From: Deltaproteobacteria bacterium GWB2_55_19
Lineage (GTDB): Bacteria > Desulfobacterota > GWC2-55-46
Assembly (NCBI GenBank): GCA_001797465.1
Contig: MGPQ01000020.1
Location: forward strand, 1-64,000
Length of the DNA: 64,000 bases
Direction: 5' to 3'
Of this stretch, positions 491-57,995 are shown in pieces (position 1 is the first letter of the stretch; every line of letters starts with the position of its first letter). Under the pieces are notes generated by a model that was not told the DNA's origin, ran no database searches, and was given only the letters and a program-made list of their open reading frames with translations. Both the position numbers and the translations under genes were made by a program.

Positions 491-1231
491 TTATTCGAGG
501 TTGTCCGCAAGCCCGGTCCTCTCCATCCCCTTGCAGTACTTCGATATCGAGAGCCTCTTAAGCTCGTATGATTGAATTAGCCGGTGGAACCATGACGGTA
601 TATGCCGCTTGAACTTGACCTCCACGATGCTGTAGCCCGGGAGGAGGAGCCTCCTCCTGTCCGTTTGCGACCCGAAGAGCCTCCCCGTGACAATGGATTC
701 CAGCGAGTCGTCGAAGGTCACGCGGAAGTCCGGCGCGAACCTGCTCACATAGGGCCTCCTCGCGTAGTCTATGAGGACGCGGGGCTTCAACCGCATCTTT
801 ATCGCGTCGAAGAGGAACCCCGAGACGAGCGGGTCTTTCCCAAGCCTCAGGCACTCTGTCACGAGCCCGCTTCCGCCTTCGTCAAGGGATTTTATTATCG
901 AGCGCGGCAGAGGCGTTCTGTGCTTGTAGACGAGCGAGTTGTACCTGCCCTTCATCTCGAGGAATATAGCCGCTTCTTCCTCCCGATCGTCCGTATACGT
1001 CCTTATCCTGTACTTCTTCCGTATCATGACGCCGTCTGTCTTCTCGTAGTAGAAGGTGAGCGCGTCGTCGTCGAAGTAGAGGGACCTGACGAAGTACTTC
1101 TGCCTTCGTCCGGCGCTTACGTGGGGGTCGAGACCCATGAAGTACTGCAGTTCGCCCTCGAAGGAGTTCCTCAGTTCTGCGTGCATTATGTACTTGAACT
1201 CGAACCTGGAGAAGTGGAGCTCAGTGGCCAT
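491..1231 (-). CDS. VTC-domain protein, putative polyphosphate polymerase
   Basis: 246-residue stand-alone VTC domain of the triphosphate-tunnel family. The tunnel signature is visible: FEFKY (11-14), RSLYFD (49-54), the basic run RKKYRIR (71-77), LEMKGR (91-96), PRVLIDY (150-156), DFR (168-170), VEVKF (203-207) and SISKY (228-232), giving the alternating Arg/Lys and Glu residues that hold phosphate and metal in yeast Vtc4. It lacks the SPX domain and membrane helices of eukaryotic VTC proteins. The start overlaps the end of the CotH gene by 11 bp, so the two are translationally coupled. Likely reaction: polymerisation of phosphate from ATP; bacterial homologues are little studied. Confidence 0.85.
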   Translation of the reverse strand: MATELHFSRFEFKYIMHAELRNSFEGELQYFMGLDPHVSAGRRQKYFVRSLYFDDDALTFYYEKTDGVMIRKKYRIRTYTDDREEEAAIFLEMKGRYNSLVYKHRTPLPRSIIKSLDEGGSGLVTECLRLGKDPLVSGFLFDAIKMRLKPRVLIDYARRPYVSRFAPDFRVTFDDSLESIVTGRLFGSQTDRRRLLLPGYSIVEVKFKRHIPSWFHRLIQSYELKRLSISKYCKGMERTGLADNLE

Positions 1232-4028
1232 CGTAGACCCCCCTTATGCCAGGCTTCATCTTTTCGATATAAGGCCGGACGAACTCAGGCGGCGTCTCTC
1301 CGGGGCCGAAGAGGTCGGGGAGGCGCGCTTTTGCCTCGAACCCCTTTTCCGAATCGACCGACTCGTGTATCCTTATACGCTTCACTTTTCCGCCGGCGCC
1401 GCCCTCTATGTACGAATCGAATATCGCGATACTCGACGCCTTGTCCGCGGTGAGCGCGTCGGTCCCGCCGGATTCAAGCCTGCTCTTGTAAATGAGCGTG
1501 TGGCCGCCGTCGCCGTACTGCCAGTTTTTCTTGTAGACGTCTATCGTCTTCCTGTTCCCGGAAAACACCGAGTTGTATATCACTGCCGTCGAGCTGTCTT
1601 TGGCCTGCACGCCTATCTGGTTGCCGGTAAGGCGCGTGTTCCAGACAAGGACTTCGGTCCCTTCGCCGACGGAGATGCCTTTGTCGCCGGAGCCTTCCAT
1701 GCGGCCCCCCAGCACCGCGACCCGGCTGGACATGAGGTCGAGCCCGTCGTTGCCGCTATTAACGAAGTTCGAATCCACGACGCTCCCCCGCACGTAATCG
1801 AGGTCGAGGGCGTCGGCCCTTGCCCCTGTGAATATGCTCTCTTTTATCGTCGCTTCCGAGTAGACGAGGTGGACCATGTCGTCTGTGAGCTTGTTATCCG
1901 AAAACGCGCAAGCCTCTATGACGACACCTTCTACCCCGTGGATGGAGAGCATCGCCGAGTATTCGACGAGCGCGTGTTGAGCGCCGCTCCCGCCCTTGAA
2001 CTCGCAGTGGCTTAAAATCGACCCGTTCGCGCCCTTGCCAGTGAGAATAACCGCGCTCCACGGGCCACTTGATGAATCGAGCGGCAGGAACCTTACGGGT
2101 CTTCCCGGCTCTCCTTTTGCCAGAAGCCGGCCTTTTATCACAAGCGACGCAGAAGGCGCGAGCCTTACCGTCACACCAGGCCTTATGACGAGGTCTTCGG
2201 CCTCCATGACGCCGTTTATTATAACATCAGAGGCGAAGACGGTCACGCCAGGCTTCCCTTCGACAGGCGCGATATTGAAAGTATCGTTAATAGGATAGGC
2301 CATCGGCGCGTCAGCGCGCCTTACATCCGCAGTCTTGCCGTCAGGCAGTATCGCCTTTAATGAAAGCAGGTCGCGCGAGCGTGCCCCCTTTATATCGAAT
2401 GCATAGGTGGCGGGGCTTATGACGGCGTCCCTGATTATTATCGGGACTCTGCCAGCGGGGGCGGACATCACGCGCCTTGCGAAGAGCGTGGCGTCGATCC
2501 GCACGGTGTCTTTATCGATGAGAGAAACCGCGCCGGATAAGTCCCTTGAGACCGCCTTCCCGTCCGAAGAGTACGAAAGTCGCGCCGAAAGCGGCCCGCT
2601 TATCGACTTGTAATCGGCCTCCAACGCCCTCACGGGCGCGAACCCCTCGACGTTCACCCGTATCTCCCCGGTCTTTTCATCTATGGAGTACGAGGCGACA
2701 GGGGGCGCACCCATGTACGCCTCTCTGACATCAATAAGGTCCTTTTTCACAAGCGACTTGAGCTCGTCAATCTTCTCCATTACTTCCGACGGGGACAGCA
2801 CGTAGGAAGACTCGAAGTGGAGGTTCCTGTCGCGCTTGAGCGAAGAGAAGATCGGGCCTGTTTCATCGAGTAGGCCCGTAATATACCCGGGACCGCCCCC
2901 CTTGAAGAACTCCTCTATTACAGCCTGTTTTTTAAGGAGGAAACGCTGGTCCCTGTGGAGGACCTCGAAGACAGGGCTTGTTATTATGTCCATCCTGTTG
3001 GTCTGTCCGTCGATCAGCGGGACATAGTCCTTGTAGTTCCAGCCGAGCGGGTCCCATACTATCGGAATAAAGCGCCCCATCGCGGGGTCGAAAAAGAGCC
3101 TCCAGTTGTGCTCCGCGTCGAAGTGCACCGTCCGGGTAAGCGTTATATAGGCCGCGAACCGCGCCCACTCGTCCATGTCGAGGAGGCCGGAGAGCGCGTT
3201 TGCATCCCCCCTGTACACGGCCGAGCTCAAGGCCTTCATCGCCTCGTTCCATTCAGGCGGGTTGTGGTTATTGAGCGCGGCCTTTGACCAGAATCCGGGG
3301 TTCAGGAATACCTCGGTCCCGACGACAGGGTATATGTCCTCGCCGACGAGTTCGCCGACGTAGATATCGCCCGGCATGCGGTTGTTTCTCCGGAGGAACT
3401 GCTCGCCTATCTGTTCGGTCAATATCTCTACGCCCAGGTACCTGCCGTTGATGTAGACCTCCACGGGCCTGGACTCCGGGGCCAAGAGCCCCATTTTTTT
3501 CGCGAGCGAGTACGCGAGGTGGTCCGTGATTATATGAGGGGTCTTGGGGATGATGAGGTTGAATTCGCGCATCCCGTTATAGAGCCTCTCCTTCTTTGTC
3601 TTTATGCGTATGGACTTTTTTCTCTCGGCCCAGTGGTACGAAAAATCCCCCCTGTACTTCATCTTGACCTCGAAGACCTTTCCGTCCGGGTAGAGGAGCT
3701 TGGCCTTCACATACTGCCGCCCTGAGTAGGGGAGGTCCGCGTCGAGTTTTTTAAGCGCGCTTTCCTGGACGTAGATATTGATTGCGGGAAGGCCTCTGTC
3801 GCCGCCGAGGGCGCGTCCGACTGATTTGAGGTCGTTAAGGAGGAGCCCGGCCCTCATCGACCCGACGGACCTAAGCCCCACGTTCATCGTCGCCCGGTAG
3901 TCGAGCTTGAGGAGCCTGTAAGAACCAGCGGTCTCCCTTATCCAGACCGCGAAAAAAACGGCTATCGGGAGTGTAGCCACCCAGCTCCACTTCCAGAGCG
4001 CCTTTATTATGGAAGCGGAGCGGCTCAT
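1221..4028 (-). CDS. CotH kinase family protein with C-terminal beta-helix
   Basis: 935 residues. An N-terminal membrane anchor (about 14-30) is followed by a CotH protein-kinase-like domain (about 80-430) with the basic motif KYRGDFSYHWAERKKS, the lid region EVYINGRYLGVEILTEQ and the metal/ATP-binding region with EHNWRLFFD and IPIVWDPLGW. The last 350 residues repeat short hydrophobic rungs (for example IKGRLLAKGEPGRPVRFLP) typical of a right-handed parallel beta-helix. The protein is therefore probably anchored and largely extracytoplasmic. CotH of Bacillus phosphorylates spore-coat proteins; the substrate here is unknown. It shares a 1-bp TGATG junction with the upstream TPR gene and overlaps the VTC gene downstream. 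Confidence 0.85.
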   Translation of the reverse strand: MSRSASIIKALWKWSWVATLPIAVFFAVWIRETAGSYRLLKLDYRATMNVGLRSVGSMRAGLLLNDLKSVGRALGGDRGLPAINIYVQESALKKLDADLPYSGRQYVKAKLLYPDGKVFEVKMKYRGDFSYHWAERKKSIRIKTKKERLYNGMREFNLIIPKTPHIITDHLAYSLAKKMGLLAPESRPVEVYINGRYLGVEILTEQIGEQFLRRNNRMPGDIYVGELVGEDIYPVVGTEVFLNPGFWSKAALNNHNPPEWNEAMKALSSAVYRGDANALSGLLDMDEWARFAAYITLTRTVHFDAEHNWRLFFDPAMGRFIPIVWDPLGWNYKDYVPLIDGQTNRMDIITSPVFEVLHRDQRFLLKKQAVIEEFFKGGGPGYITGLLDETGPIFSSLKRDRNLHFESSYVLSPSEVMEKIDELKSLVKKDLIDVREAYMGAPPVASYSIDEKTGEIRVNVEGFAPVRALEADYKSISGPLSARLSYSSDGKAVSRDLSGAVSLIDKDTVRIDATLFARRVMSAPAGRVPIIIRDAVISPATYAFDIKGARSRDLLSLKAILPDGKTADVRRADAPMAYPINDTFNIAPVEGKPGVTVFASDVIINGVMEAEDLVIRPGVTVRLAPSASLVIKGRLLAKGEPGRPVRFLPLDSSSGPWSAVILTGKGANGSILSHCEFKGGSGAQHALVEYSAMLSIHGVEGVVIEACAFSDNKLTDDMVHLVYSEATIKESIFTGARADALDLDYVRGSVVDSNFVNSGNDGLDLMSSRVAVLGGRMEGSGDKGISVGEGTEVLVWNTRLTGNQIGVQAKDSSTAVIYNSVFSGNRKTIDVYKKNWQYGDGGHTLIYKSRLESGGTDALTADKASSIAIFDSYIEGGAGGKVKRIRIHESVDSEKGFEAKARLPDLFGPGETPPEFVRPYIEKMKPGIRGVYDGH

Positions 4029-27751: not shown

Positions 27752-28963
27752 ATGAAGAGAATCTTGTTGTCAGCTTTTGCAGTTGCCATCACCGCCGCGT
27801 GGGCTGTGCCCGTCAGTGCGGCAGATGTTTCCTTGAGCGGCCAGTACAGGCTCCGCGGAGAGTACAGGAACAACGTTGATTATAACGAGGATGCCGGCGA
27901 CGACAGGGCCGCCTGGACGCAGAGGGTCAGGCTAACCGCCAACGCCAAGGCGACTGACGACACCTCCGTAAAGATCACCATTCAGGACACAAGGACCTTG
28001 GGCGCAACAGGCGTTCTTTCCGACGCCTCCACCAGCACCACCATCACCAACACCGTGGACCTCCACGAGGCCTATGTGAACATCTCGAACCTCCTCGAAC
28101 AGCCGGTAACGCTCCGCGCCGGCCGTCAGGAACTCGCCTACGGCGACGAGAGGGTCATCGGCTCCTTCAACTGGTCGAACAACGGCAGGGCCTTCGATGG
28201 TTTCAAGTTCCTTTATTCGACCGACGCCGTCAACGTGGACTTCTTCCTTACCACGGTCTCCGAGGACTCGGTTGACACAGACGCCACTTTGAACGACGAC
28301 TCTGACTTTAACGGTATCTACGCGACCCTGAAGCAGGTCATCCCGAACAACACGCTGGATGTCTACCTCCTTCACCAGACCGACAACTCTAACCTCACCC
28401 GCTACACCGTGGGCGCGAGGCTTAAGGGCGCGGCCGCGGGCGTAGACTACACCGTAGAGCTCCCGTTCCAGACCGGCGAAGAGACTGCCACGACCGATAT
28501 CAGCGCGTGGGCGCTCGCGGTTAAGGCCGGCTACACCCTCCCGACCGCTTTGAAGCTCAGGGTCGGCGGCGAGTTCGACATGGGTAGCGGCGACGACGAC
28601 GCCACCGACAACGAGAACGGCACCTGGTCTGACCTCTACCCGACCAACCATGCCCACTTCGGCTATGCCGATGTGACCGGCGCCAACAGCTGGGCCAACC
28701 TTACCGCCTGGAGCGTAAACGGGACCCTCGATCTGAACGAGAAGACCAAGCTCTATGCCGCCTACTGGAACTACACCAAGACGGAAGTTGTCTCCGGTGC
28801 TGAGGACGCGGTCGGCAGCGAAATCGACGTGACCGCGACCTACAAGTACAACAACGCGGTAACTGCCGAAGTCGGCGTATCCCGCTTCTTCGTCGGCGAC
28901 GCCACTGCGGTGGATGGCGACGACCAGGACTGGGCTTACCTCATGCTTACGGCCAACTTCTAA
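27752..28963 (+). CDS. Outer-membrane beta-barrel porin (alginate-export/porin type)
   Basis: 403 residues with a signal peptide cut near ALA-type site VPVSAAD (1-24). The mature part alternates short hydrophobic strands and Asp/Asn-rich loops and ends in Phe (MLTANF), the usual signal for outer-membrane assembly. Strand-like segments such as VSLSGQYRLRGEYR, QRVRLTANAK, VTLRAGRQELAYGDERVIG resemble the alginate-export barrel family, in which RQE/GDERV motifs recur. Strong promoter, AAGGAGG site and a perfect terminator suggest an abundant monocistronic product. Substrate unknown. Confidence 0.8.
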   Translation: MKRILLSAFAVAITAAWAVPVSAADVSLSGQYRLRGEYRNNVDYNEDAGDDRAAWTQRVRLTANAKATDDTSVKITIQDTRTLGATGVLSDASTSTTITNTVDLHEAYVNISNLLEQPVTLRAGRQELAYGDERVIGSFNWSNNGRAFDGFKFLYSTDAVNVDFFLTTVSEDSVDTDATLNDDSDFNGIYATLKQVIPNNTLDVYLLHQTDNSNLTRYTVGARLKGAAAGVDYTVELPFQTGEETATTDISAWALAVKAGYTLPTALKLRVGGEFDMGSGDDDATDNENGTWSDLYPTNHAHFGYADVTGANSWANLTAWSVNGTLDLNEKTKLYAAYWNYTKTEVVSGAEDAVGSEIDVTATYKYNNAVTAEVGVSRFFVGDATAVDGDDQDWAYLMLTANF

Positions 28964-29227: not shown

Positions 29228-29389
29228 ATGCACGAGAAGAGGGAAGATGGGCCTATCCCGGCGGGGCAGAGGTTTTACGACAACATCTTTTTGCTTTTGG
29301 TCCTGGGGGTTGTAGTCCCTACGCTAATCTATACGGTTTGGGGCCTTGTGGAGATTATGTACATCCCCAGACTGCCCATAGTCCCCTAA
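29228..29389 (+). CDS. Small single-helix membrane protein of the haem-copper operon
   Basis: 53 residues (MHEKREDGPIP...RLPIVP), ATG at 29228 behind the excellent site GAAAGGAGG. One membrane helix (about 20-44, LLLVLGVVVPTLIYTVWGLV). It is 11 bp before the subunit II gene and lies first in the operon. Likely a small accessory subunit of the enzyme, comparable in size to CbaD-type proteins, but sequence alone does not prove a family. Confidence 0.7.
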   Translation: MHEKREDGPIPAGQRFYDNIFLLLVLGVVVPTLIYTVWGLVEIMYIPRLPIVP

Positions 29390-29400
29390 GGAGGAAGGAA

Positions 29401-29925
29401 ATGGCGATTCATGAGCCCGAGAGAATATGGTGGAACCCGCTTAGCAAGGATGAAAGGGTATGGGTCGGCGTAGCGCTTATCTGGATGCTCGTCTCCTTTA
29501 TATTCATGCCGATCTATCACCTGGTAGGTTCGCAGAACCCGCCTTCGACGACATACTCGGTCAAGGCCGATGACTTCGACAAGCTCGTCGAGGGTATGGT
29601 CAGCAAGTATAAGGTGGGCGAAGAGAACGGCTTTCCGGTAGTCCACCCGGACCCCTCGGAGCCCGTCTTCATAAGGGCCTCGATGTGGCAGTGGTACCCG
29701 ATACTCGAGCTTGAGAAGGGCAAGACCTACAAGGTGCACCTCTCGTCGATTGACATCCAGCACGGGTTTTCGCTCCAGCCGATAAACATGAACCTGATGG
29801 CCCTGCCCGGCTACGACTATGTGATCAAGCTCACGCCCACCTCAGCGGGCGAGTTCCACATAGTCTGCAACGAGTACTGCGGGGTCGGCCACCACACGAT
29901 GGTCGGAAAGATGTACGTAAAGTAA
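29401..29925 (+). CDS. Haem-copper reductase subunit II with CuA centre
   Basis: 174 residues from the ATG at 29401 (GGAGGAAGGAA upstream). One N-terminal membrane helix (about 21-41) and a periplasmic cupredoxin domain. The CuA ligands are complete: His121, Cys156, Glu158, Cys160, His164 and Met167 in the CNEYCGVGHHTM motif. Trp96 and Trp98 in MWQWYP resemble the aromatic electron entry of cytochrome oxidases. The single helix and short length match subunit II of ba3-type (B-family) enzymes. It takes electrons from a cytochrome c or copper protein and passes them to subunit I. Confidence 0.9.
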   Translation: MAIHEPERIWWNPLSKDERVWVGVALIWMLVSFIFMPIYHLVGSQNPPSTTYSVKADDFDKLVEGMVSKYKVGEENGFPVVHPDPSEPVFIRASMWQWYPILELEKGKTYKVHLSSIDIQHGFSLQPINMNLMALPGYDYVIKLTPTSAGEFHIVCNEYCGVGHHTMVGKMYVK

Positions 29926-30275: not shown

Positions 30276-31793
30276 ATGGCAAATACTGACTTCAGGATAT
30301 GTTCCCTGTCCGGGCTCAAGATAAGCAGAAGCAGCGAGCTCCTGATCAGGTGGAACCTGATAGCGGCCTTCGCGACGCTGGCCGTCGGCGGGCTCATGGG
30401 CCTCCTGGTGCTCCTCACGAGGTGGCCGAGCGTGCACCTCCTGCCGGTTGAGCACTATTACAGGTTCCTGACGGCCCACGGCCTGGACGCGCTGCTCGCG
30501 TGGATAATCTTTTTTGAGATAGCGCTCGTCCACTTTACCTCAGCCGTGCTCCTGGGCACGCGGTCTTATGTGACGTGGCTCGGCTGGGTGGCCTTCGCGC
30601 TCATGCTCATAGGCGGGGCCCTCATTAACACGATAGTAGTCCTCGGCAGGGCAGACGTGATGTTCACGTCATACGTGCCGCTCAAGGCGGACCCGCTCTA
30701 CTACCTCGGGGTGATCCTCTTCGCCGTCGGCGCCCTCATCGGGTTCATACATTTTTTCATAAACATCGTCCTTTCAAAGAGGGACGGCGGGTTTAAGAGG
30801 TCGCTCCCGCTCGGGAGCTTCGGACTCGCCGCCGCGAGCATCATCGGCATCCTTACCCTCGCACACGGCGCGGCCATATTCCTCCCGACGCTCCTCTGGT
30901 CGATGGACGTCATCCCGACGATAGACCCGTCGGCTTACAGGCTCGTATTCTGGGGCCTCGGGCACTCGTCCCAGCAGATCAACGTCTGCGCGATGGTCGC
31001 CGTATGGTACATGACCTCCGCCTTCGTCGTTGGCGGCAAGCCCGTTAACGAGAAGCTCTCAAGGACGGCGTTTGTCCTTTATATACTCTTTATAAACCTG
31101 GCCTCGGAGCACCACCTCCTTGTCGACCCGGTCCTCTCCAGCTGGCACAAGGTAGTGAACACGAGTTACATGATGCATCTGGCGGTGCTCGCTTCCATGA
31201 TACACGCCTTCGCCATACCCGCCTCGATGGAGGTTGCTTTAAGGAAACAGGGCTACACGAGAGGCCTCTTCGAATGGCTCAAAAAAGCCCCCTGGGGTAA
31301 CCCGGCATTCTCGGGCGTCATTATCTCGATAGTCCTCTTCGGGTTCCTTGGCGGCATCACCGGCGTCATATTCGGGACAGAGCAGTTCGCCATTATCCGC
31401 CACAACACCTTCGCGATAACCGGCCACTTCCACGGCACCGTCGTCGCGGGCACGACCATTGCTTTCATGGCGTTCACATACCTCCTTATCCCCTTCATCT
31501 TCAAGAGGGAGCTTATCTGGAAGGGGTTCGCCGCTATCCAGCCGTGGCTCTACGGGGCCGGGGTCGCGACGCTCTCCATCGGCATGATGAGTGCGGGTTC
31601 CTTCGGCGTGCCGAGAAGGCACTATGACATCACGTTCTCCGGCGCCCCGTTCTCATTCACCTTCGACCCGGCGATTGACATGTTCATGTCGATGATGGGT
31701 GTCGGGGGCGTGCTTGCCGCCGCCGGCGGGCTCCTCTTTATACTCATTGCCTTCGGCTCGATCATCTTCGGAAAGAAGCTGGAACAGCAGTAG
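30276..31793 (+). CDS. Haem-copper reductase subunit I, B-type-like, lacking the crosslinked Tyr
   Basis: 505 residues, about 12-13 membrane helices. Metal ligands present: His68 (low-spin haem, TAHGLDALLAW), His230, His279 and His280 (copper site, GLGHSS and SEHHLLVDP), His384 and His386 (haems, TGHFHGTVV). In oxygen reductases of the A and B families the copper-site His is followed four residues later by a Tyr that is covalently linked to it (HPxxY). Here the stretch is HSSQQ, so Gln234 replaces Tyr. It is otherwise most like B-family (ba3) enzymes. Either an unusual oxidase or, by this feature, a CuA-type nitric oxide reductase. Confidence 0.88.
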   Translation: MANTDFRICSLSGLKISRSSELLIRWNLIAAFATLAVGGLMGLLVLLTRWPSVHLLPVEHYYRFLTAHGLDALLAWIIFFEIALVHFTSAVLLGTRSYVTWLGWVAFALMLIGGALINTIVVLGRADVMFTSYVPLKADPLYYLGVILFAVGALIGFIHFFINIVLSKRDGGFKRSLPLGSFGLAAASIIGILTLAHGAAIFLPTLLWSMDVIPTIDPSAYRLVFWGLGHSSQQINVCAMVAVWYMTSAFVVGGKPVNEKLSRTAFVLYILFINLASEHHLLVDPVLSSWHKVVNTSYMMHLAVLASMIHAFAIPASMEVALRKQGYTRGLFEWLKKAPWGNPAFSGVIISIVLFGFLGGITGVIFGTEQFAIIRHNTFAITGHFHGTVVAGTTIAFMAFTYLLIPFIFKRELIWKGFAAIQPWLYGAGVATLSIGMMSAGSFGVPRRHYDITFSGAPFSFTFDPAIDMFMSMMGVGGVLAAAGGLLFILIAFGSIIFGKKLEQQ

Positions 31794-32048: not shown

Positions 32049-32876
32049 ATGTGCATCAAAAAAAAACGCGCGATATTAGTCTCAGTAGCGGCGCTTATCA
32101 TGTTCGTACTTTCAGGCTTCGGCGCCTCCGCAAAGGACGCGGACATGCAGGAGCTCAAGGACGCCTTTGATGCATCCGTTGCCGTTGAGGGGGCAAGAGT
32201 CGGAGACTACGCGCTCATTGACCAGGACGGGAGGCGTTTCATGCTCTCCGATTATTTCAGGGAGAACGGAAAGCCGCTCGTCGTAAGTTTCATCTACACC
32301 TCCTGCCCGGAGGTCTGTCCGACCATAACCGCAAGGCTTAAGTCAGCGACGGATAACGCCAGGGCGAAGTTCGGAGACAGGTTCAGAGTCCTCTCGGTCG
32401 GATTTGACACGGAGAACGACACGAGCGCGGCGCTTAAGAAATACGGGCTTAAATACACGAAGGACTTCGCCTCGTTCACCTTTGCGGCGGCCTCCCCGGA
32501 GACCGCAAGGAAGATGACCGAAGACTTCGGTTTCTTCTGGAAGAAGAAGGCCGACGGGAGTTTCGACCACATAGACATGGTGACTGTCGTGAACCACGAC
32601 GGGGTCATATACAAGCAGGTCTACTCGATGAGGACGCAGGGCGCCACCCTCGGCTCCAGGCTCGAGGAGCTCCTGACCGGCAAGCCCATAGGCAAGGGAG
32701 ACGCGTCGCTCATAGACAAGCTGAAATACTTCTGTTACAGGTACGACCCGTACACAGGGGAGTACGTGCTGGATTACCCCGTCTTTTTAAGCGTCTTCAT
32801 ACAGCTCGCCGTGATACTCACCATAGTCTACGCGGTATGGGGGAAGATGATCATGGCGCGCCTCAGGAAGGGTTAG
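32049..32876 (+). CDS. SCO1/SenC/PrrC family copper chaperone
   Basis: 275 residues. N-terminal membrane or signal segment (8-27), thioredoxin-fold SCO domain with the copper ligands Cys86 and Cys90 (TSCPEVCPT) and His174 (FDHIDMV), then a C-terminal extension with DPYTGEYVLDY and a membrane helix (about 248-268), a form common in deltaproteobacteria and Aquificae. SCO proteins deliver copper to the CuA centre, here that of the subunit II encoded 2 kb upstream. The start follows CCGAGGAGC. Separate promoter, but the cytochrome b fusion gene follows after 9 bp. Confidence 0.92.
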   Translation: MCIKKKRAILVSVAALIMFVLSGFGASAKDADMQELKDAFDASVAVEGARVGDYALIDQDGRRFMLSDYFRENGKPLVVSFIYTSCPEVCPTITARLKSATDNARAKFGDRFRVLSVGFDTENDTSAALKKYGLKYTKDFASFTFAAASPETARKMTEDFGFFWKKKADGSFDHIDMVTVVNHDGVIYKQVYSMRTQGATLGSRLEELLTGKPIGKGDASLIDKLKYFCYRYDPYTGEYVLDYPVFLSVFIQLAVILTIVYAVWGKMIMARLRKG

Positions 32877-32885
32877 GGAGTGGAA

Positions 32886-34415
32886 ATGGGAGAAAAAACG
32901 GGGTTCAGAGGCGCGGGCCTCGCTGAAAGGGCATGGCTCGCGATCGAGAGGCTTCTAAGCGGCGTAGTCGAGTCCGAGTACAACCCGCTCTATTATCTCG
33001 GCGCCATCAGCATATTCTTCCTCTGGATAATACTCGTAACAGGCGTGTACCTCTTCCTCTTCTACGACATATCGGCAAGGGGCGCGTACGCGTCCGTGCA
33101 ATCGCTCACGATAACGCAGTGGTACCTCGGCGGCGTCATGAGGTCGCTCCACCGGTACGCCTCCGACGGCCTTATAATAACGATGCTCCTCCACGCCTTC
33201 CGGTGTTTCATTACAGGCAGGTACAGGCACTGGCGATGGCTCGCCTGGGTCTCCGGCGTCGCCATCGCCTGGGTCGTCTGGATAGGCGGCATCTTCGGCT
33301 ACTGGATGGTCTGGGACGAGCGGGCCAAACTAATAGCGACGCTTTCGGCGCGGATGATAGAGAGCATCCCGATATTCGGGCTTCCGCTCTCCTTAAACTT
33401 CGCGCGCGTGGAGAGCCTCACTGACCAGCTCTTCTATATAATCCTATTCATACACTTCTCGACCGCGTTCCTCCTCTTCATCCTCATCCTCGTCCACATA
33501 GTTAGGGTAACCAGGGCGGTCATAAACCCGCCGAGGGTAGCGGCGTACGGCATAATCATCGCGCTCCTCGCGCTCTCGTTCATAAAGCCGGCTCTAAGCG
33601 GGGCCCCGGCGGATCTAAAGAGGCTCTCGGAGGCGGTCCCGTTCGACTGGCTCTTCATGTTCATATTCCCGTTCCTGAACTGGGTCTCCGCGCGCTCCCT
33701 CTGGGGCTTTATCGTAGCAACGACGCTCATCCTGGCCGTCGTCCCGTGGCTGGGCAGGAGGAACAGGAAGCCCCCGGCGAAGGTCGCGCTCGAGAACTGC
33801 ACCGGATGCGAGCTCTGCATGGAGGACTGCCCGTACCAGGCTATTATGATGAGGCCGAGGACCGACGGACTGTCTTACCCCCTGGAGGCCGCGGTGGTGG
33901 ACAAGCGTTGCGCGAGTTGCGGGATATGCGTCGGGGCCTGCGACTACAAGGCCATCGACCTCCCGGACATGACCGAGGGGACGGTAAAGGCCGAAATAGC
34001 GAGGCTTGCTTCCGAGCTTAAGGAGAAGGCCGAAGGGAGAAGGGTCGTAGTCTTCGCCTGCGCGAAAGGCCCCGGGCCAGGCTTACTATCAGGCGGCAAT
34101 GGAACCATCAACGGCTTAGACTGGGCCCGCGTTGTCGCGCTCCCCTGTATAGGGATGCTCCAGCCCTCGATGATCTCGAGTGCGCTCGACAAGGGCGTTG
34201 ACGGCGTATTTATCGCCTCATGCGCTCAAGGGGACTGCCATTACAGGAAAGGGGCCGACTGGCTCTCCGCCAGGCTCGCCGGTTTCAGGCCGCCTGTCGT
34301 GAAAAAATCCCTGGACAGGTCCCGGATAAGGATCGAATACCTCTCGGCCGTCGAGGGGGACGCGTTCATAAAGGGTCTCACCGCCTTCAGGGAAGGCCTC
34401 AAGGCAAGGAGTTAG
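32886..34415 (+). CDS. Fusion: cytochrome b, two-cluster ferredoxin, MvhD domain
   Basis: 509 residues from ATG 32886 (GGGAG upstream). Part 1 (about 30-290) is a bc1/b6-type cytochrome b with two bis-His haem pairs, His89/His190 and His103/His204 (each pair member 14 apart in its helix), plus later helices and a PFDW motif where quinol-oxidising cytochromes have PEWY. Part 2 (300-360) carries two CxxCxxC-x3-C [4Fe-4S] motifs. Part 3 (385-500) is MvhD/FlpD-like with Cys392, Cys421, Cys446 and Cys451 (FACAKG, LPCIGMLQPSM, SCAQGDCHY). MvhD normally links hydrogenase or formate dehydrogenase to heterodisulfide reductase. Here it would join soluble electron carriers to the quinone pool or to the neighbouring terminal reductase. 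Confidence 0.88.
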   Translation: MGEKTGFRGAGLAERAWLAIERLLSGVVESEYNPLYYLGAISIFFLWIILVTGVYLFLFYDISARGAYASVQSLTITQWYLGGVMRSLHRYASDGLIITMLLHAFRCFITGRYRHWRWLAWVSGVAIAWVVWIGGIFGYWMVWDERAKLIATLSARMIESIPIFGLPLSLNFARVESLTDQLFYIILFIHFSTAFLLFILILVHIVRVTRAVINPPRVAAYGIIIALLALSFIKPALSGAPADLKRLSEAVPFDWLFMFIFPFLNWVSARSLWGFIVATTLILAVVPWLGRRNRKPPAKVALENCTGCELCMEDCPYQAIMMRPRTDGLSYPLEAAVVDKRCASCGICVGACDYKAIDLPDMTEGTVKAEIARLASELKEKAEGRRVVVFACAKGPGPGLLSGGNGTINGLDWARVVALPCIGMLQPSMISSALDKGVDGVFIASCAQGDCHYRKGADWLSARLAGFRPPVVKKSLDRSRIRIEYLSAVEGDAFIKGLTAFREGLKARS

Positions 34416-34421
34416 GGAGAT

Positions 34422-35075
34422 ATGTGGGTAGCAGGCGTATTGCTCGCGTTCATACTGCCGGTCATATACATTGTCATAAAGGAATGGCGGTCCAGGAAGG
34501 CTTCAGAGAAGGACAATGGGCCTCCCGTGAAAAAGAAACCGTTGGACCGGAGGGCCCTCGCCGGGGTCTCCGTAATACTCTTTGCGCTCATACTCCCGTC
34601 GATCTGGCTCTCCGACATCTCTTACTCATTTTACAGGAAAGAGGATGCCGCGTTGAAGGTCGCCTTCAAGCATTCAGGGGGCAGGGTCGCCGAGTGCGAC
34701 GAGGCCGACCTCATAAAGAAAGAGGGAGAGAGGTACAGGCGGGAGCTCAAGGACACGAGGCAGGTGAAGATGAGCATGTCGAAGCTCGGCGGTTGTTCGA
34801 GGGAGAGACACCCGGTCGTCGTGGAACTCTACATGGACGGCAGGAAACTGCTTGACAAGGCCTACGCGCCGACGGGCCTTAAGAGGGACATGGCCTCTTA
34901 CGTATTCGAGGAGTTCCTGATAGAGCCCGGCTTGCACAGGGTAGAGGCGAAGCTCTACAGGAGCGGCCCCGGCAGACCCGCGGATTTTTCGCTCGACCAC
35001 GCGATGGAATTGAAGCCAGGCGGGATAAGGGTCGTAAGGTTCGACGAGAAGGAGGGCGCGTTATTGATAGAGTGA
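34422..35075 (+). CDS. Membrane protein of unknown function, end of the SCO-cytochrome b operon
   Basis: 217 residues. Two membrane helices (about 2-19 and 47-66, LAGVSVILFALILPSIWLS) then a soluble beta-rich domain, probably periplasmic, with HPVVVELYMDGRKLLDKAY and VEAKLYRSGPGRPADF. No cofactor motif beyond two Cys (in VAECDE and LGGCSRE). I do not recognise the family. It follows the fusion gene after 6 bp with GGGAG as ribosome site, so it is likely an accessory or assembly factor of the same complex. Confidence 0.7.
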   Translation: MWVAGVLLAFILPVIYIVIKEWRSRKASEKDNGPPVKKKPLDRRALAGVSVILFALILPSIWLSDISYSFYRKEDAALKVAFKHSGGRVAECDEADLIKKEGERYRRELKDTRQVKMSMSKLGGCSRERHPVVVELYMDGRKLLDKAYAPTGLKRDMASYVFEEFLIEPGLHRVEAKLYRSGPGRPADFSLDHAMELKPGGIRVVRFDEKEGALLIE

Positions 35076-35173: not shown

Positions 35174-35206
35174 ATCCAGGTAAATAGGCGCTCTTTGGGG
35201 ACTGTG

Positions 35207-37396
35207 ATGAGATTCGGCATAAGGACGAAGCTCCTCGTCTTTGCCACCCTTGTATGGGCGGTGATATTCGGGGTATACAGCTTCTATATATATCATGAGA
35301 GGATCGAGCAGACGAGGCGTATGGCGCTGATGGCCGCCGACCTCCTCTCCAGGAAGATCGCGGCCGACAGGCAGTACTACGCCTCGACCGTGGTAAAGAG
35401 GGCGCTCGAGGCCGGCCTCACCGTAACAGGCGCCTACCAGAACGACCCCAAGGCCATACCGTTGCCCACCACGTTCATAAAAGAGGTCTCCAAATCATTA
35501 GGGTCGAGAGGCGGCCTCCACATGGAAATAGTCAGCCTGTACCCCATAAACCCGGCTAACGCGCCCAGGGACGCATTCCAGCAGGAGGCGTTGGAGATAT
35601 TCGCAACCGGGGCAGAGGCGCGCCATTACAGTTTTGAGGACTTCGAAGGCATGGCGTCCGTCAGGTACATGATACCGGACATAGCGACGTCCCAGACATG
35701 CGTAGACTGCCACAACAACAACCCGGGGTCCCCCAGGACCGATTATAAAATAGGCGACGTCGCCGGCGCCCTTGAGGTGGTCGTCCCCATAGAAAGCGAG
35801 ATGCACGCGGCGATGGACGACATCCTGCGCTCCATACTCTACGGCTTCGCCGTCGTCCTCTCGATGGGCCTCGTGGGGCTCGCCTTCATACGGAAGGTCG
35901 TCACCTCCCCGGTATTGAGCCTTGTGGACACGACGAGACAGCTCGCCTCCGGGGACCTGACGGCCGGGGCCGGGGTAAAGTCAAAGGATGAGCTCGGGCT
36001 CCTCGCCGCGCAGACTAACGAGCTCGCCAGGAACTTGAGCGTTGTGATAGAGGGGATAAGGAAGACGTCGGACGAGGAGACCGAGATTACCTCGGGCCTT
36101 AAAGATGTCAGGAGGCGGATAATAGACGGCGCCACGCGCCAGGGCGCGGCGATAGACTCCATCGGCGGGAACATGGAGGGGCTTAACGCGACGATAGTAG
36201 AGATAGCCAGGTACTCGGAGTCTCTGGCCGCCGCTGTGGAGAAGGGGGCGGCGTCTGTCCTCGAACTCGGCGCTTCGGTCGCCGACGTCGTCGATAACAT
36301 GGATTCGCTGTTGTCCAGCGTGGATGAGACCGCCGCCTCAACGCGCGACATGTCGTTTTCGATAAAGGAAATATCCGAGAATATCGAGAGCCTCTCGTCC
36401 TCCGTCATGCAGGTGTCGTCATCCATGACGCAGATAAACGCCCGGATACGGGAGGTCGAGACTAACGCGGCTGAGGCGTCCAGGTTCGCCGAGGACGTCA
36501 TAAGGGACGCCAACGCCGGGCTCCTTGCCGTCGAATCCACCATAGACGGGATAATAAGGACAAAGGACATAACGCGGGAATCGACCGGGATAATAAACAG
36601 CCTGTCCGAGAAGATAAAGGAGATAGGAAAGACGCTCGATGTCATCAGGGACGTCGCCGAGGAGACGAACTTGCTCGCCTTAAACGCCGCCATCATCGCG
36701 GCCCAGTCCGGAGAGCACGGCAAGAGCTTCTCGGTAGTATCGAACGAGATCAAGGACCTCGCCGAGAGGACTTCGACCTCCGCGAAGGAGGTCTCCGAGA
36801 TAATCGACGCGGTTGAGATCGAGTCGAACAGGGCCGTCAAAGCGATGGATAAGGGGTGCCTGAGCGCCGAGGAGGGCGTAAAGCTCTCGATGGAGGCCGG
36901 AGAGGGTTTGAAAAAGATAGTAAGCTCCGCCAAAAAGTCTACCGAGAGCGTGCGCGAGATAGCACGCGCCTCGGTCGAGCAATCCAAGGAGATAAACCTG
37001 GTCGTCGAGGCTACTGGGAAGGTCGCGGAGATGACCCGGAGGATCGTGAGCGCCACGCAGGAGCAGGCGAAGGGGAGCGAGCTCATAACCAGGGCGTCCG
37101 AGCGGCTCGCGAACATCGCTTACAGGGTCAAGGGCTCGACGAGGGCGCAGGCGGCGTCCGACAAGGAGATCACAGGAGCCATAGAGGAAGTAAGGAGTAT
37201 GGTGAGCTTCATAAGCAATATCATCCGCGAGCAGGAGAAGAACACCGCTAAAGTCGTGGACGCCATAGAGGCCGTCCGGATGGTCTCGGTCGAGAACAGG
37301 GACAAGGTTCTGGAGTCCGAGAAGGCCTTCGGGCGGCTCATCCAGCTCAACCGCGACATGAGCGAGAGTGTCGCCAGGTTCAGGCTCGATAAATAG
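35207..37396 (+). CDS. Methyl-accepting chemotaxis protein with haem-binding DUF3365 sensor
   Basis: 729 residues. Membrane helix (about 9-29), periplasmic Tll0287-like/DUF3365 domain (35-200) with a c-type haem motif CVDCH (165-169), second helix (207-228), HAMP (228-282) and a long coiled-coil signalling domain whose tip reads [21 protein letters not shown] with [16 protein letters not shown]. No CheR-tethering pentapeptide at the C-terminus. Haem-c sensors of this type respond to redox state, O2, NO or CO. The gene directly follows the haem-copper/cytochrome b cluster, which may supply the signal (inference). ATG chosen over an upstream TTG. Confidence 0.9.
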
Positions 37397-55545: not shown

Positions 55546-56403
55546 ATGTACGAGATCGTCGAGAAGGCCGAGCTTGCCCACACTGTCTACCAGTACAAGA
55601 TAAAGGCCCCGCTCATAGCTAAGAAGAGGCGCGCCGGGCAGTTCGTGGTCCTGAGATTGAACGAGATGGGCGAGAGGATCCCCCTTACGATAGTCGGGTC
55701 TGACGACAAGGCGGGGACGATCACGATAATCGCCCAGGAGGTCGGCAAATCGACGGCGATGCTCGGCGACATGGTGGTGGGGGATTCCATCCTCGACGTC
55801 GTAGGCCCCCTCGGCAAGCCCACGCACATAGAGGACTTCGGCATTGTCGTCTGCGTAGGCGGCGGCATAGGCACGGCCCCGGTGCTCCCCATAGCCAAGG
55901 CCATGAAGGAGGCGGGCAATAAGGTCATCTCCATCATAGGCGCCAGAAACAAGGGGCTACTCATACTCGAAAACGAGATGAGGGAGGCGAGCCACGAGCT
56001 TAACATAACGACGGACGACGGGAGCTACGGCCACCACGGGTTCGTCACGCAGGTGCTCCAGAATTTCATAGACGAGGGGATGAAGATCGGGTGCGTCGTG
56101 GGCATAGGCCCGGTGCCGATGATGAGGGCTGTGGCCAACGTCACGAGGCCTTACAAAATTCAGACGGTCGTGAGCTTGAACCCCATCATGGTCGACGGAA
56201 CCGGCATGTGCGGCGCGTGCAGGGTGACGATAGGCGGAAAGAACCAGTTCGTATGCGTCGACGGCCCTGAGTTCAACGGCCACGAGGTCGACTATGACGA
56301 GCTCATGATGAGGAACAGGAGCTATATAAAAGAAGAGAAGGCCGCGATGGAGGAGTTTACCTACCACGAGGGCGCTAAGTGTTATGAAAGAGAGTGCAAA
56401 TAA
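55546..56403 (+). CDS. NADPH:ferredoxin oxidoreductase-like FAD/NAD-binding subunit
   Basis: 285 residues of the PyrK/NfnA/sulfide-dehydrogenase-beta type. FAD-binding barrel (1-95, IPLTIVGSDD), NAD-binding domain (100-220; VCVGGGIGTAPVLPI) and a C-terminal [2Fe-2S] motif: MCGACRV plus QFVCVDGPEFNGH. Partner of the GltA-like subunit encoded 173 bp downstream, separated by repeat copy C. Together they would form an NfnAB-like complex that may bifurcate electrons or make NADPH. Confidence 0.92.
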   Translation: MYEIVEKAELAHTVYQYKIKAPLIAKKRRAGQFVVLRLNEMGERIPLTIVGSDDKAGTITIIAQEVGKSTAMLGDMVVGDSILDVVGPLGKPTHIEDFGIVVCVGGGIGTAPVLPIAKAMKEAGNKVISIIGARNKGLLILENEMREASHELNITTDDGSYGHHGFVTQVLQNFIDEGMKIGCVVGIGPVPMMRAVANVTRPYKIQTVVSLNPIMVDGTGMCGACRVTIGGKNQFVCVDGPEFNGHEVDYDELMMRNRSYIKEEKAAMEEFTYHEGAKCYERECK

Positions 56404-56540
56404 GCTAAAAATTGATCTTTTTCCTGATCTCTGTGTCAGGTCGTAAATAAAAATACTCACATATGAACATATATGCTCCGTTTTTTATTTCCGCCCTTCC
56501 TTGATCTCAGAAAAAATATCTAATCTTTAAAGACGGCCTA
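56404..56540. repeat. MITE-like palindromic repeat, copy C
   Basis: Inverted relative to copy A and similar along its length: TAAAAATTGAT at one end, TTTCCTGATCTCTGTGTCAGG, the AT-rich centre with CATATATGCT and TTTTTATTTCCGCCCTTCCTTGA. Outermost arms are weaker than in copy A. It separates the two Nfn-like genes and could lower read-through between them. Confidence 0.7.
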
Positions 56541-56576
56541 AAATTTCATTTTTCAGATAGAAGGAGCGCAACTGCG

Positions 56577-57995
56577 ATGGACGCGAACGAGATAAAGGGG
56601 CGGATGAAGATACCCAGGCAGACGATGTCTGAGCAGAATCCGCACGAGAGGGTCAGGAACTTCTATGAGGTCCCGTACGGCTTCACCCCGGAGCAGGCGA
56701 TGGCGGAGGCGAAGAGGTGCATCCAGTGCAAGAAGCCGCTCTGCGTCGGCGGATGCCCCGTGAACATCGACATACCCTGGTTCATACGTCTCATATCAGA
56801 GGGCAAGTTCATCGAGGCGGCGCATAAGCTCAAGGAGACGAACGGGCTTCCGGCGGTATGCGGCAGGGTCTGCCCGCAGGAAGACCAGTGCGAGAAGGTC
56901 TGCGTCATAGGCAAAAAGTCCGACGCGGTCTCCATCGGCAGGCTTGAGAGGTTCGCGGCTGACTACGAACGGGAACACGGCGAGATAACAATACCTAGTA
57001 TACCTAAGTGGACCGGTAAAAAGGCCGCTGTCGTCGGCGCCGGTCCGGCCGGCCTCACGGTCGCGGGCGACCTCGTCAAGAAAGGGCACAAAGTAACGGT
57101 CTTCGAGGCGCTCCACACGCCTGGAGGCGTCCTCATGTACGGCATACCGGAATTCAGGCTCCCCAAGAAGATAGTCCAGTCAGAGGTCGAGTATTTGAAG
57201 CGCATGGGCGTTGAGATAATCCTTAACGCCGTCGTCGGCAAGCTCGAGACGATTGACGAGCTGCTTGCCGACGGCTACGGCGCCGTATTCGTAGGCAGTG
57301 GCGCCGGGCTCCCGAACTTCATGAACATACCCGGAGAGAACCTCTCAGGCGTATACTCGGCGAACGAATACTTAACCCGCGTGAACCTTATGAAGGCGTA
57401 CCAGTTCCCGGAGTATGACACGCCGGTAATACGCGGCAGGAAGGTCGTGGTCATAGGCGGCGGGAACACCGCCATGGACTCGGCAAGGACGGCCTTAAGG
57501 CTCTGCCCCGAGGAGGTCTCAATCGTATACAGGAGGTCGAGGGAGGAGCTCCCGGCGAGGGTCGAGGAGGTCCACCATGGCGAAGAAGAGGGGTTGAGAT
57601 TCCAGCTCCTCACCAACCCCAAAAAGTTCATAGGCGACCACGAGGGGAGGCTTAAGGCCCTCGAGTGCGTGAGGATGGAGCTTGGAGAGCCGGATGAGTC
57701 CGGGAGACGCAGGCCCGTGGAGATGAAGGGCTCGGAGTTCACGATAGAGGCGGACGTCGCGATAATCGCCATAGGAAACGGAGCGAACCCGCTTATACCG
57801 CAGACCACGCCGGATATCAAGGTGAACAAGTGGGGGAACATCACGGTGAACCCGGATAACGGCAGGACTTCCAAGAAGGGTGTCTTCTCCGGGGGCGACA
57901 TCGTCCGCGGGGGCGCGACAGTCATACTCGCCATGGGAGACGGCAGGCGCGCCGCCGACTCGATGGACGAGTACATGAGAACGGGTATATGGTGA
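56577..57995 (+). CDS. gltA: NADPH-dependent glutamate synthase small-subunit-like (GltA/NfnB)
   Basis: 472 residues. N-terminal [4Fe-4S] ligands CIQCKKPLCVGGCP and CGRVCPQEDQCEKVC, FAD site GAGPAGLTVAGDL and NADPH site GGGNTAMDSARTA. Members of this stand-alone group are partners of the preceding FAD/NAD subunit in NADPH:ferredoxin or sulfide:NADP reduction, rather than classic glutamate synthase; gltA is the conventional label. Confidence 0.93.
   Translation: MDANEIKGRMKIPRQTMSEQNPHERVRNFYEVPYGFTPEQAMAEAKRCIQCKKPLCVGGCPVNIDIPWFIRLISEGKFIEAAHKLKETNGLPAVCGRVCPQEDQCEKVCVIGKKSDAVSIGRLERFAADYEREHGEITIPSIPKWTGKKAAVVGAGPAGLTVAGDLVKKGHKVTVFEALHTPGGVLMYGIPEFRLPKKIVQSEVEYLKRMGVEIILNAVVGKLETIDELLADGYGAVFVGSGAGLPNFMNIPGENLSGVYSANEYLTRVNLMKAYQFPEYDTPVIRGRKVVVIGGGNTAMDSARTALRLCPEEVSIVYRRSREELPARVEEVHHGEEEGLRFQLLTNPKKFIGDHEGRLKALECVRMELGEPDESGRRRPVEMKGSEFTIEADVAIIAIGNGANPLIPQTTPDIKVNKWGNITVNPDNGRTSKKGVFSGGDIVRGGATVILAMGDGRRAADSMDEYMRTGIW

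Follow-up and report, generated by a model that had tools for sequence, protein, structure and literature searches.

The analysed window, a stretch of 64,000 nucleotides of contig MGPQ01000020.1 from Deltaproteobacteria bacterium GWB2_55_19, encodes a single polypeptide in which a cytochrome b6/subunit IV-like membrane part, a 2[4Fe-4S] ferredoxin domain and an MvhD/FlpD domain follow one another in one reading frame, next to the genes of a haem-copper reductase. We propose, with a probability of roughly 55%, that this fusion is a dedicated electron-transfer subunit of eNOR-type nitric-oxide reductase and, more widely, of B-family haem-copper reductases. The observations on which this proposal is built are the fused architecture itself, the invariance of its ligands, the conservation of the gene cassette, the co-occurrence with the catalytic subunit I, the fusion to a small membrane protein in other genomes and a host genome whose search yielded neither a second bc-type cytochrome b nor a Rieske protein. 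The positions of the genes and domains are given in Table 1.

Table 1. Genes of the reductase cassette and domains of the fusion protein (positions in the window)
Feature	Position	Strand	Details
Haem-copper reductase subunit II	29338..29925	+	CuA motif (H142, CNEYCGVGHHTM); probable true start ATG 29401
Haem-copper reductase subunit I, B-family (ba3-like), putative eNOR-type	30276..31793	+	Gln234 for catalytic Tyr (GHSSQQIN); six His
SCO1/SenC copper chaperone	32049..32876	+	C-terminal membrane helix
Cytochrome b6/subunit IV - 2[4Fe-4S] ferredoxin - MvhD/FlpD fusion	32886..34415	+	509 aa from ATG
Cytochrome b6-like four-helix part	32943..33530	+	Residues 20-215
b6f subunit-IV-like two helices	33543..33755	+	Residues ~220-290; PEWY-like loop VPFDWLF, residues 251-257
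2[4Fe-4S] ferredoxin domain	33789..33962	+	Residues 302-359; 8 invariant Cys; predicted cytoplasmic
MvhD/FlpD domain	34044..34403	+	Residues 387-506; Cys 392, 421, 446, 451; one [2Fe-2S] cluster
Small membrane protein	34422..35075	+	Two predicted TM helices and beta-sandwich domain

Architecture and conservation of the fusion

The triple fusion of cytochrome b, ferredoxin and MvhD described by the initial annotation, which knew of no standard name for it, was confirmed on both counts. Three Pfam domains exceeding their gathering scores were found in the 509-aa protein, Cytochrome_B at residues 29-207 (E 9e-16), a Fer4 dicluster at residues 304-357 (E 3e-8) and FlpD/MvhD at residues 387-506 (E 4e-21), in an ORF with zero internal stops; an alternative in-frame GTG start at 32880 would lengthen it to 511 aa with the same stop at 34415. 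The fusion is without a curated name because its NCBIfam matches, which include HdrA2 (residues 298-506) and cytochrome b ExtP (residues 35-212), are all partial and below cut-off. In the PDB, separate relatives were retrieved for each piece, with cytochrome b6 and MvhD chains among the top sequence matches. The segment that links the b6 part to the ferredoxin had been left unnamed; a profile of residues 212-292 matched only b6f subunit IV among PDB chains (four weak matches, best E 0.05), the PEW of b6f being aligned to FDW of the fusion. On the basis of these matches at residues ~220-290, the cytochrome part can be described as a b6 followed by a shortened subunit IV. The structural model of the fusion (mean pLDDT 75.7, with its minimum in the loop of the PEWY-like motif) has the full-length cytochrome b of complex III as its best structural match.

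A frameshift or an assembly join between domains, which would have undone this description, was ruled out by the intact frame, by full-length homologues sharing 40-97% identity in at least 20 independent MAG assemblies, and by dN/dS. Both domain junctions lie in one frame in the homologues read, so the fusion is not an assembly join, and it is under purifying selection, dN/dS being 0.156 in the comparison with a relative at 97% identity (Ks 0.10) and 0.159 with one at 83%. In one MAG (H5_GWC, L043:5424-12864), the subunit I, fusion and chemotaxis genes are each split into several frames; these breaks are probably sequencing errors, since another locus of the same assembly (L027) carries an intact fusion.

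Four bis-His haem ligands are located on helices B and D (H89, H103, H190 and H204) and the Cys of the two [4Fe-4S] clusters are found at positions 305/308/311/315 and 342/345/348/352. Across about 25 homologues, none of the 16 ligands (4 His, 8 + 4 Cys) varies, the MvhD Cys being counted over the deltaproteobacterial and gammaproteobacterial set, and every full-length homologue checked keeps the ligands of both haems and of both [4Fe-4S] clusters. Judging from hydropathy and loop charges, the BC loop, the DE loop and the residues that follow helix F face the cytoplasm, which implies that the ferredoxin and MvhD domains are cytoplasmic too. According to this positive-inside topology, H103/H204 would hold the cytoplasmic-side haem and H89/H190 the periplasmic-side haem. 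The Qo-type motif is altered: PEWY is replaced by PFDWLF in the window protein, the proteobacterial homologues mostly have xDW[FY][FY] at this place, and those of Chloroflexota have P[MI]D[AS..][FLY]Y. The haem ci Cys is absent, Cys35 of b6 being aligned with Tyr37.

The MvhD domain is less uniform. In nine Chloroflexota homologues (L131, L133-L140), all four of its Cys are replaced (e.g. SSHG, SSQN) and the fold is kept, together with the four haem His and the eight ferredoxin Cys; the MvhD cluster, and any HdrA docking through it, is therefore optional. As judged from these alignments, the constant part of the family is made of the ferredoxin clusters and the haems. The nine homologues constitute a natural experiment on the role of the MvhD domain. 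Reading of the cassettes revealed no gene resembling HdrA; one is present elsewhere in the host genome, on contig C9 (L058:7875-14097), in an HdrC-HdrB-HdrA-MvhD locus followed by FrhB-like and Fer4_22 proteins, and this locus adjoins genes resembling TCA-cycle enzymes and has its own MvhD. The loss of Cys in the nine homologues, the lack of HdrA in the cassettes and the own MvhD of the genomic HdrA together weaken MvhD-HdrA as a universal electron link. The route between soluble low-potential carriers and the quinone pool or the reductase that had been suggested from the window is thus retained in its general form, the anatomy being suited to a link of cytoplasmic Fe-S carriers to quinone or CuA, and its specific MvhD-HdrA component is not supported.

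The gene cassette and its haem-copper subunit I

The cassette consists of the genes for the CuA subunit II, the haem-copper subunit I, SCO, the fusion and the small membrane protein, in this order, with intergenic gaps of 3-10 bases from SCO through the small membrane protein in the window. The five-gene order is kept in about 20 MAGs across families and orders, including one gammaproteobacterial MAG. At five loci (L091, L092, L093, L095 and L160), the small membrane protein forms the C-terminal part of the fusion, and this joining in one chain is good evidence that the two work together. An identity of the small membrane protein as FixH/CcoH was discarded, having no Pfam support in 16 members and being further disfavoured by the separate short membrane protein that the cbb3 cluster of the host has there. 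Its Foldseek search returned no match at E <= 0.001, and a PHROGs search returned no match.

The placement of the fusion in a terminal reductase cluster was borne out, and the reductase could be assigned. The best PDB matches of subunit I are ba3-type oxidases, which points to the B-family. A Gln occupies the position of the catalytic Tyr (Q234) in 14/14 cassette subunits I and aligns with the Tyr of ba3 and with that of the oxidase at locus L158. The His ligands of the low-spin haem, the high-spin haem and CuB (H68, H230, H279, H280, H384 and H386) are invariant, as are the CuA ligands of subunit II (H142, C177, C181 and H185), whose gene lies upstream of that of subunit I. Families of NOR were reportedly defined in a PNAS paper. 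The replacement of the active-site Tyr by Gln is the signature of eNOR (PMC8756737, PMC11388526). By this signature and its ligands, the cassette subunit I is classified as an eNOR-type B-family haem-copper reductase, for which NO would be the substrate.

Paralogues of the COX1 family were also encountered (L055:9356-10789, corresponding to 281.4-282.7 kb of host contig C10; L160:5578-7095; L063:2439-3926; L091:11533-13011; L093:7088-8485). They keep the haem His and lack both helix VII CuB His and the Tyr/Gln (GHILQFAN), and apparently represent a haem-copper fold unable to bind CuB normally. They often lie beside the eNOR or the fusion, and at L093 such a paralogue is the sole haem-copper-like gene seen near the fusion.

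Several other genes accompany the cassette. A methyl-accepting chemotaxis protein (35195-37396), whose Tll0287-like sensor domain bears a CVDCH haem-c motif, adjoins it in the window and is kept there in many relatives; it is possibly a redox or NO sensor. The gene just ahead of the cassette codes for an Alginate_exp-type outer-membrane porin (27752-28963), and many relatives keep it at this place. Elsewhere in the window, a CotH-kinase domain protein with a right-handed beta-helix tail is encoded on the minus strand (1221-4028). At two loci (L040:1-9500 and L044:1-7715), the eNOR cassette and the fusion form a row behind a second haem-copper pair with HxxxN (GHILMN) and in front of hemerythrin-like genes. 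The cassette of L040 is also preceded by narG-, narJ- and narI-like genes, recognised from reading the ORFs and not by profile search. Going by its gene content, such a row is a compact denitrification island.

Distribution, host context and proposed role

Among the 40 relatives examined, the fusion is present in 20 of the 22 that have a close subunit I, the two exceptions being G005 and G023, whose contigs stop short of the expected position of the fusion. Only one of the 18 relatives without subunit I has it (G036), and there the end of the contig cuts the fusion. This co-occurrence gives a Fisher P of 4e-8, a value inflated by relatedness. NirS occurs in 9/21 genomes with the fusion and 2/19 without it (P 0.03, relatedness uncorrected). 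Outside the family of the window, the fusion is sporadic in the phylum (13/395 genomes). An eNOR-type subunit I was found in 29 of 400 Chloroflexota genomes, 11 of which carry a cytochrome b-ferredoxin ORF of the fusion kind within about 8 kb; ten of these ORFs are ~700 aa long and end in the small-membrane-protein domain, the remaining one being cut at a contig end. In a tree of subunit I, built solely from sequences found in this analysis and with no named reference eNORs, the fusion-linked rows comprise all 16 of the sampled deltaproteobacterial and gammaproteobacterial ones and 11/15 of one Chloroflexota clade. Other eNOR clades are devoid of the fusion, which means that the enzyme family does not need it. 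At L158, a B-family oxidase of the ba3 type that keeps the Tyr (GHPLVYFW) is immediately followed by a fusion with an additional cytochrome c domain, an arrangement that points to electron supply to B-family enzymes and not to NO chemistry. Genomic association thus places the fusion module with B-family haem-copper enzymes generally and not with NO reductases alone.

In the whole host genome, no second PF00033 cytochrome b was found (positive controls) and Rieske (PF00355) gave no match, control genomes being positive. NirS and NirK are absent from the host and from its nearest relative (G001), so that the enzyme would meet NO coming from other organisms or other routes. Host contig C10 (L087:4880-12086) carries an ACIII-like quinol:cytochrome c oxidoreductase cluster with a multihaem cytochrome c, molybdopterin-like, Fe-S and NrfD-like subunits and a monohaem cytochrome c. 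Its presence means that quinol could reach CuA via ACIII and cytochrome c, and the fusion would then be an additional, dedicated route. In this cluster, ActB is represented by separate genes for its molybdopterin-like and Fe-S parts, the nearest NCBIfam model being QrcB, below cut-off. The host also possesses caa3-like and cbb3-like oxidase clusters. Two adjacent genes of the window (55546-57995) resemble the two halves of the ferredoxin-NADP bifurcating transhydrogenase NfnAB and suggest a ferredoxin economy in the host organism.

In the role proposed here, the fusion would form a complex with the reductase. Its b6/subunit-IV-like part would hold a pair of b haems spanning the membrane and, probably, a site for quinone, and the ferredoxin and MvhD domains would form a cytoplasmic Fe-S arm next to the cytoplasmic-side haem. 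Electrons would enter at the fusion from menaquinol and/or cytoplasmic low-potential Fe-S donors, and would pass from haem bN to haem bP, then to the periplasmic CuA of subunit II and to the haem-copper site; in one Chloroflexota version they may exit via the fused cytochrome c domain. Such a fusion would take the place of a cytochrome bc complex and would do so with no Rieske protein.

The fusion could instead be a pure quinol:CuA donor, whose Fe-S domains would transport no electrons and have a structural, assembly or redox-sensing role. The nine Chloroflexota homologues that keep the MvhD fold and lose its Cys are in line with this reading, as are the cassettes read, which show no dedicated soluble partner, and the status of the fusion as the only bc-type cytochrome b of the host; however, the eight ferredoxin Cys are invariant even where MvhD is degenerate, which is hard to square with a vestigial role, and we regard it as unlikely. 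A ferredoxin- or Hdr/MvhD-linked menaquinone oxidoreductase, feeding the quinone pool and sharing only a regulon with the NO reductase, would also make use of a cytoplasmic Fe-S arm and a diheme cytochrome b, and an HdrCBA-MvhD locus does exist elsewhere in the host. The tight linkage and co-occurrence of the fusion with subunit I, the cytochrome c-bearing Chloroflexota version next to an oxidase and the fusion to the small membrane protein nevertheless argue against such a detached function, to which we give little credence.

The same anatomy could serve electron flow in the opposite direction, with quinol split at a Qo-like site, one electron going downhill to CuA and NO and the other through the b haems and the Fe-S arm to a soluble low-potential acceptor (ferredoxin or HdrA). 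A b6/subunit-IV fold with a DW[FY][FY] Qo-like motif, the cytoplasmic position of the Fe-S arm and the ferredoxin economy suggested by the NfnAB-like genes would fit this outward bifurcation, and an analogue has been proposed for anammox Rieske/cytochrome b complexes, in which NAD(P) reduction is coupled to favourable nitrogen-oxide reduction (PMC12954380). Yet the host genome has no Rieske, so CuA itself would have to act as the high-potential branch, the cassette showed no subunit for NAD(P) or flavin, and nine homologues are without the MvhD cluster; we consider it quite improbable. A Rieske-less quinol-bifurcating NO reductase, passing one menaquinol electron by CuA to NO and the other by the b haems and the Fe-S arm to ferredoxin, is a long shot; if bifurcation were true, NO respiration would directly yield low-potential reductant.

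Under the preferred reading of a dedicated electron-transfer subunit, a conserved protein with its own haem and Fe-S wire becomes a concrete candidate for the electron donor of eNOR-type NO reductase, which does not appear to be established in the literature found. Ferredoxin-level cytoplasmic input to a haem-copper enzyme, or bifurcation by it, also becomes testable. The fusion would moreover serve as an eNOR marker in genome surveys, where eNORs are often annotated as cytochrome oxidases.

Comparison with known systems

Our search of the accessible literature retrieved no description of the fusion as a subunit of a haem-copper reductase. Nor did this literature contain a characterised family with this architecture, which is nevertheless listed once: RME88945.1 (PMC8756737, Table A3) combines in one ORF a cytochrome b6 (PRK03735), a DMSO-reductase-beta-like ferredoxin domain and FlpD. 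It differs by an additional C1 cytochrome c domain, and L158:4704-7073 looks of that type; in this supplementary table it is a by-product of a C1-domain search and its function is undiscussed. The cassette shares with the eNOR-type nitric-oxide reductase (PMC8756737, PMC11388526) the Gln at the Tyr position of subunit I, all metal ligands and a cupredoxin subunit II encoded immediately upstream. The accessible descriptions give that enzyme two subunits, however, and do not list the fusion, SCO and the small membrane protein among its parts.

With cytochrome b6f (PetB + PetD), the fusion has in common a four-helix diheme cytochrome b, subunit-IV-like helices and a PEWY-like loop; it differs in being a single chain with a shortened subunit IV, an xDW[FY][FY] motif and a cytoplasmic Fe-S arm, and in lacking Rieske, cytochrome f and the haem ci Cys (Tyr37). 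The anammox Rieske/cytochrome b complexes with NAD(P) oxidoreductase (PMC12954380) likewise associate a b6-type cytochrome, a cytoplasmic Fe-S redox module and nitrogen-oxide chemistry, whereas the fusion has no Rieske, multihaem c subunit or FAD/NAD(P) domain and bears its ferredoxin and MvhD arm in the same chain. The MvhD/FlpD of methanogen Mvh-Hdr complexes (PDB 5odc, 7bkb) is akin in sequence and shares the four Cys of the [2Fe-2S] domain; there, it is a separate subunit joining HdrA to hydrogenase or formate dehydrogenase, unlike the MvhD of the fusion, which is tethered to a membrane cytochrome in a cassette without HdrA. The parts and eNOR itself were thus already known, and what appears to be new is a Rieske-less bc-type cytochrome b module with a ferredoxin/MvhD arm attached to an eNOR-type reductase.
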